Source of the DNA: Treponema bryantii
GTDB lineage: Bacteria > Spirochaetota > Spirochaetia > Treponematales > Treponemataceae
Assembly: GCA_015061465.1 (NCBI GenBank)
Contig: SUWN01000008.1
Coordinates: 1 to 63,777 of the forward strand
DNA length: 63,777 nt
Direction of reading: 5' to 3'
Part shown: one piece after another, positions 59,647-62,041 of the stretch
Numbering within the stretch: position 1 is the stretch's first letter
How the letters are laid out: the number at the start of each line of letters is the position of its first letter
Made by a program: the position numbers and the translations under genes
Notes under the pieces: model-generated
Seen by the model: the letters and a program-made list of their open reading frames with translations, nothing else
The model's database searches: none
What the model was told of the DNA's origin: nothing

Positions 59647-61365
59647 ATGGCTAAAACATTTGATGATAAGAAAATTATTTACACAATGAATGACGTAAGT
59701 CGTGCTTATGGAACAAAAGTTGTTTTAAAAAATATAAGCATTTCTTACTATTATGGCGCAAAAATTGGTGTAATTGGTGCAAACGGTTCTGGTAAATCAT
59801 CTTTATTTAAGATTCTCGCTGGAAAAGACACAGAATTTACAGGCGAAACTTCACTTCTCCCAGGGTACACAATTGGATATTTGGAACAAGAACCAGAATT
59901 AGAAGCTGGAAAAACAGTTATGGAAATTGTAAAAGAAGGTGTAAAACCAATCACAGACCTTCTTGAAGAATTTGACAAAGTAAACGAAGCATTTGGTGAC
60001 CCAGACGCAGATTTTGATAAACTTTGTAACCGCCAAGCAGAAATTCAAGAAAAATTAGATGCATTAGACGCTTGGAATTTAGACGCAAACCTTGAATTAG
60101 CAATGGAAGCACTTCGTTGTCCACCAGCGGAACAAGTTGTAGACGTACTTTCTGGAGGAGAACGTCGTCGTGTTGCGTTATGTCGTCTTCTTCTTCAAAA
60201 ACCAGACATTTTGTTATTAGACGAACCTACAAACCACTTGGACGCAGAAACAGTTGCTTGGCTCGAAAATCACTTGCATGAATATCCAGGAACAGTAATC
60301 GCAATTACACACGACCGTTACTTCTTAGACGACGTTGCCGGTTGGATTTTGGAACTTGACCGTGGAGAAGGATATCCTTTCAAAGGAAATTATTCATCTT
60401 GGCTTGAACAGAAAAACCAACGTCTTGCTTTGGAAGCAAAAGGTGAAAGCCAACGCCAAAAAGAAATTGCTCGCGAATTGGAATGGATTCACACAAGTGC
60501 AAAAGGACGTCAGGCAAAACATAAAGAACACATCACACGCTATAACGAACTTATGGCACAGGAATCTAAAAAGCAACTTAAAGATACACAAATTTCTATT
60601 CCTGCAGGACCACGCCTTGGAAATCAAGTAATTGATGCAGAAAATATCACAAAAGCATTCGGCGACAAATTGCTTTTTGAAAATTTAAGTTTCCACATCC
60701 CAGCTGGAGCAATTGTAGGAATTGTTGGACCAAACGGTGCTGGTAAAACAACATTATTCAAAATGATTGCCGGAATTGAAAAACCAGATAACGGCGAAAT
60801 CAAAATCGGGCAAACAGTAAAAGCAGTTTACATCGACCAAATGCGTTCCACATTGGACGAAAACAAAACCGTTTACGAAACATTAAGTGGCGGCGCTGAT
60901 TTAATCAAACTTGGAGCTGTTGACGAAAAAGGACGTGCTCTCGAAGGTGGCGTTCGTGAAGTAAACGCACATGCATATTGTGGTTGGTTCAACTTTGGTG
61001 GCGCAGACCAAAACAAAAAAGTAAGCGTTCTCTCTGGTGGAGAAAAAAACAGATTGAACCTTGGACTTATGCTCAAAGAAAGCGGAAACGTTTTAATGCT
61101 CGACGAACCTACAAACGACCTCGACGTTCAGACAGTTCGTGCATTGGAAGAAGCATTGGAAGATTTTGCAGGATGTGCCCTCGTTGTAAGCCACGACCGT
61201 TGGTTCTTAGACAGAATCTGTACACACATCATGGCATTTGAAAACAATTCGGAAGTTAGATTCTTTGAAGGAAACTGGAGCGAATACGTAGAATGGAAGA
61301 AAGAACAATTTGGCGAAGATTCTTCAGTTCCAAAACGCACAGTATACAGAAAACTTACACGCTAG
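59647..61365 (+). CDS. ettA: ABC-F protein EttA (energy-dependent translational throttle)
   Basis: A 572-residue soluble protein with two ATPase domains. Walker A motifs are IGANGSGKSSLFKILAG and VGPNGAGKTTLFKMIAG. Signatures are VLSGGERRRVALCRLLL and VLSGGEKNRLNLGLML, and each Walker B runs into LLDEPTNHLDAETVAW or MLDEPTNDLDVQTVRA. The linker and arm (GRQAKHKEHITRYNELMAQE) match EttA. EttA binds the ribosomal E site and gates entry into elongation. ATG 59647 has no ribosome-binding site; a weak -10 (TAGTAT, 59634-59639) 7 nt upstream suggests a leaderless message. Confidence 0.93.
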   Translation: MAKTFDDKKIIYTMNDVSRAYGTKVVLKNISISYYYGAKIGVIGANGSGKSSLFKILAGKDTEFTGETSLLPGYTIGYLEQEPELEAGKTVMEIVKEGVKPITDLLEEFDKVNEAFGDPDADFDKLCNRQAEIQEKLDALDAWNLDANLELAMEALRCPPAEQVVDVLSGGERRRVALCRLLLQKPDILLLDEPTNHLDAETVAWLENHLHEYPGTVIAITHDRYFLDDVAGWILELDRGEGYPFKGNYSSWLEQKNQRLALEAKGESQRQKEIARELEWIHTSAKGRQAKHKEHITRYNELMAQESKKQLKDTQISIPAGPRLGNQVIDAENITKAFGDKLLFENLSFHIPAGAIVGIVGPNGAGKTTLFKMIAGIEKPDNGEIKIGQTVKAVYIDQMRSTLDENKTVYETLSGGADLIKLGAVDEKGRALEGGVREVNAHAYCGWFNFGGADQNKKVSVLSGGEKNRLNLGLMLKESGNVLMLDEPTNDLDVQTVRALEEALEDFAGCALVVSHDRWFLDRICTHIMAFENNSEVRFFEGNWSEYVEWKKEQFGEDSSVPKRTVYRKLTR

Positions 61366-61374
61366 AATTAAACT

Positions 61375-61943
61375 TACGAATAAATTAAACAATTAAAAAC
61401 CAAAGAATTAATAAAAACAATTTAATATTGCTCCCGCTTACGTAGGCTGGTTCAAAAACGCTCGATAACTCGCTACACGCTGCTTGTGGTATAGAAACTA
61501 TAGAACCAGCCACTATTGTGGCTGCCACAAGCAGAGTGTTTTTCCCCCAACCTCCGTTCGCTCGCGCAAAATCTATTTTTTAATAAACTATTTATAAATG
61601 TTTAATTTATCAAAATGGGCGGAAATATCTAAAAAACGAACGTTGGTATATGTAAAGTTTATTTTAAAATTTCTGGGCAAATTCGATAAAGTAAACATAT
61701 AAAAAAATTGTCTGAAAAAGGCGGAGTGAATGTTCGTTGGCGCAGCTGCTCATTTTTATTGCGAAAATATCTTGCTGCGCCACCAGTTTTGTAGAAACTA
61801 CAAAACTGGAAGCACGGACAAGACATTCTAACGTTATACGATGTTCAAAAGTCCGTGCTATCTCTCGGCGGAGCATAAGTACGGTTATTCATGGGAGCCT
61901 TTTTCGCTCGATGTTTTTTATTTATATGTTTAATTTATTCGTA
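61375..61943. repeat. Non-coding element bounded by perfect 17-bp inverted repeats
   Basis: TACGAATAAATTAAACA (61375-61391) recurs inverted as TGTTTAATTTATTCGTA (61927-61943); a partial copy lies at 61599-61610. Inside, GGCTGGTTC (61445-61453) pairs with GAACCAGCC (61503-61511), while ACACGCTGCTTGTGG (61475-61489) pairs with CCACAAGCAGAGTGT (61525-61539). The two pairings interleave. Later hairpins are GGCGCAGC/GCTGCGCC, the 12-bp CCAGTTTTGTAG-AAA-CTACAAAACTGG and AGCACGGAC/GTCCGTGCT. No convincing gene is present. It fills most of the 842-bp gap between ettA and the SGNH gene. Confidence 0.65.
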
Positions 61944-61968
61944 CATTTTTTTCACAAAAAAATTAAAG

Positions 61969-61998
61969 AAAACTGTCATATTTTTGACAGTTTTTTTT
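61969..61998 (+). terminator. Strong hairpin terminator
   Basis: AAAACTGTCA-TATTTT-TGACAGTTTT is followed by more T residues. It closes the non-coding block and would stop transcripts from ettA or from the element before the SGNH gene. Confidence 0.8.
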
Positions 61999-62041
61999 AT
62001 TTCCTTTCCATATTAAACTTTTTTACATATGACAAGGAGAT

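Follow-up and report, generated by a model that had tools for sequence, protein, structure and literature searches.

A new MITE family in Treponema carries a deeply conserved palindromic core common to two transposon systems

Most bacterial MITEs are regarded as deletion derivatives of one IS, and the RUP and Correia elements are TA-duplicating MITEs of the IS630 type. REP sequences are defined as palindromes of 20-40 bp with a GTAG/CGTC tag (PMC3733652), and such palindromes are preferred by the IS110-family element IS621 (PMC11208160). The 569-bp block described here resembles MITEs such as RUP and Correia in being short, non-coding, multi-copy and intergenic, with terminal inverted repeats (TIRs) and a TA duplication, but differs from them in that no transposase with these ends was found in its genome and in that it holds a large structured core common to a MITE of another IS family. 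The MITEs of ISAs1-family ISs resemble it in this core: in other Treponema, members of the core family are found between ISAs1-type ends that are bordered by 10-bp target-site duplications (TSDs), whereas the copy studied here has other ends and duplicates TA. Like REP/BIME and ERIC sequences, the core is a dispersed extragenic DNA palindrome near gene ends and a landing pad for IS110 elements; unlike them, it is longer, branched and equipped with transposon ends, and it lacks the GTAG/CGTC tag. The element represents a new family of Treponema MITEs. Its general kind is known, but its deeply conserved palindromic core, common to two transposon systems, is unusual, and no published description of the family was found in the open-access literature.

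The window, by which we mean the whole 63,777-nucleotide stretch that was analysed, belongs to a draft genome of a gut or rumen Treponema (2.06 Mb in 87 contigs, an 83% complete MAG). The block (61375-61943) lies in a gap between two + strand genes, starting 9 bp past the stop codon of an ABC-F ATPase gene (end at 61365) and followed, 264 bp beyond it, by a gene for an SGNH-hydrolase-like lipoprotein (from 62208). Inspection of the open reading frames within 61375-61943 found no plausible coding one, and neither phage records nor contigs of viruses gave a match to the block, which leaves a phage or viral origin without support. A preliminary description of the sequence had drawn attention to perfect 17-bp inverted repeats at the borders, which we recovered at 61375-61391 and 61927-61943, and to several hairpins, of which the 12-bp one was located at 61783-61794/61798-61809 and the stems GGCGCAGC/GCTGCGCC and GCACGGAC/GTCCGTGC are likewise present in the block. 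It had also called the GC content locally higher, and this holds relative to the downstream gap (36% versus 30%) but not relative to the upstream gene (41%), high GC being restricted to the core (51%). Compared with shuffles, folding was strongly favoured for the whole block (z = -9.4) and for the core (z = -4.7). Directly downstream of the element, at 61964-61999, the window contains a strong bidirectional intrinsic-terminator-like hairpin (AAAACTGTCA...TGACAGTTTT), which probably served originally to terminate the ABC-F gene.

We found the element to be dispersed, with about 26 loci in its own 2.06-Mb draft genome. Seven of these copies are nearly whole-length, with 89-100% identity (89-94% for whole-element copies elsewhere in the genome) and alignments that run from base 1 to base 569, the exact extent of the window copy. 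The others comprise about a dozen shorter variants with complete ends (504-521 and 557-560 bp, the own copies spanning 504-569 bp) and several half copies at the edges of contigs. The search for the terminal repeat that the preliminary description had proposed showed it to be far from unique: the end motif TASGAWTAAATTAAACA has 41 exact matches in the own genome, versus 0 for a reversed control pattern, and 1 occurrence in the 145 other genomes of the genus. This near confinement of the TIR sequence to the own genome indicates a recent amplification in this lineage. In the own genome, all intact ends start with TA. In an empty-site query with the first seven own loci (2529/6154 bases), a sister copy (C35:30724-31291) proved to have an empty site in three relatives (G105, G112 and G157), which have the same gene pair but lack the element, so that the flanking sequences align ungapped across a single TA. 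Hence, the 17-bp repeat resolves into a TA target duplication (61375-61376 on the left, 61942-61943 on the right) and a 15-bp TIR with the consensus SGAWTAAATTAAACA (61377-61391 on the + strand, 61927-61941 on the - strand), contrary to the earlier view that no target-site duplication is visible. The comparison with relatives thus yielded an empty site for one sister copy only, the intergenic flank of the window copy being without alignment to relatives. Across 17 sites, the targets share a palindromic context with A at -3 to -9 and T at +4 to +10, that is, an A-tract, NN-TA-NN and a T-tract. Nearly all own copies lie a few to ~100 bp from gene ends, and several gene stop codons fall inside the TIR. 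With TIRs at the exact ends, dispersed copies, no internal transposase gene, and a TA duplication with a clean empty site at a sister copy, the element shows most of the features by which MITEs are recognized, and the proposal of a non-autonomous transposable element is borne out by its multiple copies and fixed ends.

Searches for DDE_3 and DDE_Tnp_1 domains in the 83%-complete MAG were empty, and a transposase carrying the element's own TIR was not found among its contigs; multi-copy ISs are often missing from MAGs. Given the TA specificity, an IS630/Tc1-like enzyme is our first guess for the transposase, and because the own MAG contains no match to PF13358, and hence no DDE_3 transposase with a matching TIR, we do not file the element as IS630-derived. 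Nor is the window copy derived from ISAs1 by its ends, since the CAGGGC TIR of ISAs1-type MITEs has 0 matches in the own genome. We suggest that a transposase supplied in trans would recognize the 15-bp terminal repeats and insert the element at a TA within the symmetric A-tract/TA/T-tract target. As the targets lie mostly just past stop codons, insertion would be harmless, and the TIR can even provide the stop.

The interior of the element is dominated by core A (61428-61569, + strand), a 142-bp imperfect palindrome and genus-wide conserved module that matches a covariance model at 141.8 bits and shows covariation. Its outer stem (61428-61457/61540-61569) encloses a hairpin (61459-61472) and a further stem (61475-61489/61525-61539), which in turn carries an inner hairpin (61507-61513/61518-61524). 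Among 23 diverse members, 31 of the 47 pairs of this nested fold exhibit double, compensatory changes (158 double-change cells), and the fold is 95% paired versus 80% in shuffles, with 0 of 500 shuffles as good; versions of the fold slid along the sequence all drop to 35-47% paired. The preliminary description had instead named two interleaved helices and a pseudoknot or two exclusive states. The first of these helices can be located (GGCTGGTTC at 61445-61453 with GAACCAGCC at 61503-61511), but it is 47.0% paired versus 47.2% in shuffles of the 23 cores, so that the interleaved arrangement is not supported. GGCTGG in fact belongs to the outer stem, where its partner is CCAACC, and CCAGCC pairs with GGCTG within an inner hairpin. 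The second named helix (ACACGCTGCTTGTGG at 61475-61489 with CCACAAGCAGAGTGT at 61525-61539) is present as a stem of the nested fold, though complementary at 14 of 15 positions rather than perfect.

The manner of pairing points to a constraint on DNA. An RNA used from the + strand is expected to show G-U well above A-C. In 159 unique cores, however, 91% of the pair cells are Watson-Crick, with G-U at 1.4% (99) and A-C at 4.0% (286), and in the 23 cores G-U numbers 25 versus 21 for A-C, counts that include related sequences repeatedly. With G-U as rare as A-C, the constraint looks like that of DNA hairpins or of arm homogenization and not that of a one-strand RNA. These pair counts point to a core that is maintained as a palindrome in DNA.

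Using the covariance model across 146 genomes of the genus, we located the core family in 79, mostly in many copies each. The exact core sequence had no match in named genomes, and a looser core pattern retrieved, among the matches listed, spirochaetes only, namely gut or rumen Treponema and Treponema-like MAGs. In a survey of 143 cores, a sample enriched for typical ones, 83 were flanked by CAGGGCAAACGCATTATAAA (CAGGGC) TIRs, at least 37 of these with ~10-bp TSDs. A two-contig genome of the genus (G168) contains a 1.28-kb IS with the ends CAGGGCAAACGCATGTAA, 10-bp TSDs and a transposase with PF13808 and PF01609, which we take to be the ISAs1 combination. Such ISAs1-type ISs and the CAGGGC-flanked cores of other species share the outer TIR CAGGGCAAACGCAT and ~10-bp TSDs, the marks of ISAs1-derived MITEs; other species thus carry the core in ISAs1-type MITEs, and the window copy carries it between unrelated, TA-duplicating ends. 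ISAs1-family ISs with CAGGGCAAACGCAT ends are present in many copies in G168 (L343 1335-2613 and other loci) and were also located in G031 (L127 255-1520). Such ISs are candidates for the autonomous partners that go with the ISAs1-type MITEs of this genus. About 40 of the sampled cores are bare, without recognizable ends. They are flanked by A-tracts on the left (54% A) and T-tracts on the right (54% T), compared to 39% and 34% for wrapped cores. Their median distance to a stop is 37 bp, and they occupy convergent-gene positions more often than wrapped ones (11/38 versus 3/66, p = 0.0008), a habit that, judged from sequence, appears terminator-like.

The rest of the interior is modular. A degenerate internal copy of the terminal repeat (AAATGTTTAATTTAT, 61591-61610, - strand) lies between core A and a second palindromic module (AAAAAGGC...GCCTTTTT, 61715-61904), which was delimited by alignment of the own copies. 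In 13 of 19 aligned copies, the apical cassette of this module (61738-61862) is replaced by a different one of ~62 bp, such that a ~122-bp three-hairpin cassette and the short cassette alternate between copies of the same genome. Core A itself is subject to such exchange, as two aligned own copies (L018 and L020) have its first hairpin replaced by an unrelated one (GGCGTCGTA...TACGACGCC). By eye, the second module resembles core A in outline only (GGCTCCC...ATTCAC...TCC...GCC), and a profile search for it as a diverged copy of core A gave no significant match.

Core A is also the target of another mobile element. Much as IS621 targets REP palindromes (PMC11208160), an IS110-type element has inserted into the core, always at one position, which its predicted guide matches. 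The target here, however, is a MITE core in a spirochaete, and the IS is known from its assembled ends only. Four contig ends of the own genome (G000; L024 1-130, L025 1-150, L026 1640-1767 and L027 1-245) exit core A on the left side, at ...GCAGAGTGTT, into one common foreign sequence that encodes, on its reverse strand, an IS110-type C-terminus, and two others (L008 1860-2021 and L023 1-160) re-enter it on the right side. The IS thus sits at an identical internal base in at least four own copies, between ...GCAGAGTGTT and TTT..., a point that corresponds to 61538-61543 and is empty in the window copy. In G149, G031, G089 and G107, relatives of the inserted IS110 retain an upstream segment that is RNA-like and conserved but includes a variable part. 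In each element, this part matches the target of that element in reverse complement, the own predicted guide (AGAGTGTT) doing so at 8 of 8 positions. Summed over guides and targets, 32 positions matched versus a permutation mean of 20, and 2 of 120 permutations were as good. On this analysis, the entry at the core fits the published bridge-RNA logic. A second IS110-family transposase gene in the own genome (L140, C80:53636-53872) was considered as the inserter and rejected, as it belongs to a different IS110 whose ends mismatch; it is unrelated to the one in the MITE core.

Taken as a whole, the block is very probably a TA-inserting, non-autonomous MITE-like element with 15-bp TIRs that carries a genus-wide palindromic core. 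A gene for a structured non-coding RNA or riboregulator, multi-copy by chance, would account for the conserved hairpin loops of the core and for its strong covariation at 31 of the 47 nested pairs, and a structured RNA gene had been offered in the preliminary description. We consider this very improbable: neither the standard nor a relaxed threshold gave an Rfam family for the block, there is no promoter excess, pairing is Watson-Crick without a one-strand preference for G-U, dozens of near-identical copies bear transposon ends, and apical cassettes are exchanged wholesale. A REP/BIME-type extragenic palindrome, mobilized by a single-strand (RAYT/IS200-like) transposase and provided with TIRs later, fits the bare cores near gene ends, the pairing conserved as DNA and the targeting by IS110 elements, which recalls that of REPs by IS621. 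The core is, however, 142 bp long instead of 20-40 bp and shows no GTAG/CGTC foot tag, its foot being TGGCTCCC...GCGCCA; TIRs accompany 83 of the 143 sampled cores, many with 10-bp TSDs, and the bare ones could be MITEs whose ends have decayed, making such an origin improbable.

Also unlikely is a reading in which selection, and not transposition, has spread the elements as domesticated transcription terminators that act in both directions. The A-tract before and T-tract after bare copies, their short distance from stops and their convergent excess agree with such a role, as does the position of own copies next to stop codons, but it leaves the TIRs, the TSDs, the empty site and the near-identical lineage-specific copies unexplained, and ISAs1-wrapped copies avoid convergent positions (3/66). 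Besides the missing transposase and the empty site of a sister copy only, it counts against the MITE reading itself that a single core is combined with two kinds of ends unrelated to each other, for which mobilization alone is no sufficient explanation. In the scheme that we favour, nonetheless, the MITE-like element would have been mobilized in trans, and its 142-bp core belongs to a genus-wide family normally carried by another MITE with ISAs1-family ends and 10-bp duplications. As the core arms co-vary as DNA, the conserved property would be the extrusion of a branched single-strand hairpin or cruciform. This hairpin may first have served the mobile element, through substrate geometry or replication-linked transposition, and bare copies near gene ends may now resemble bidirectional terminators. 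A more far-reaching idea, which we put forward tentatively, is that the core is an independent plug-in DNA structure, adopted separately by TA-duplicating and ISAs1-type MITEs in one genus, with selection acting on hairpin-forming DNA that, after end decay, could become a bidirectional terminator and a landing pad for a self-programmed, bridge-RNA-guided IS110.

As one strongly constrained palindrome recurs in two transposon systems whose ends are unrelated and whose duplications differ, the function of a MITE interior becomes testable. Its Watson-Crick-only covariation would provide a clean natural example of a structure conserved as DNA, and the IS110 matches point to a predicted guide fitted to a host repeat family.
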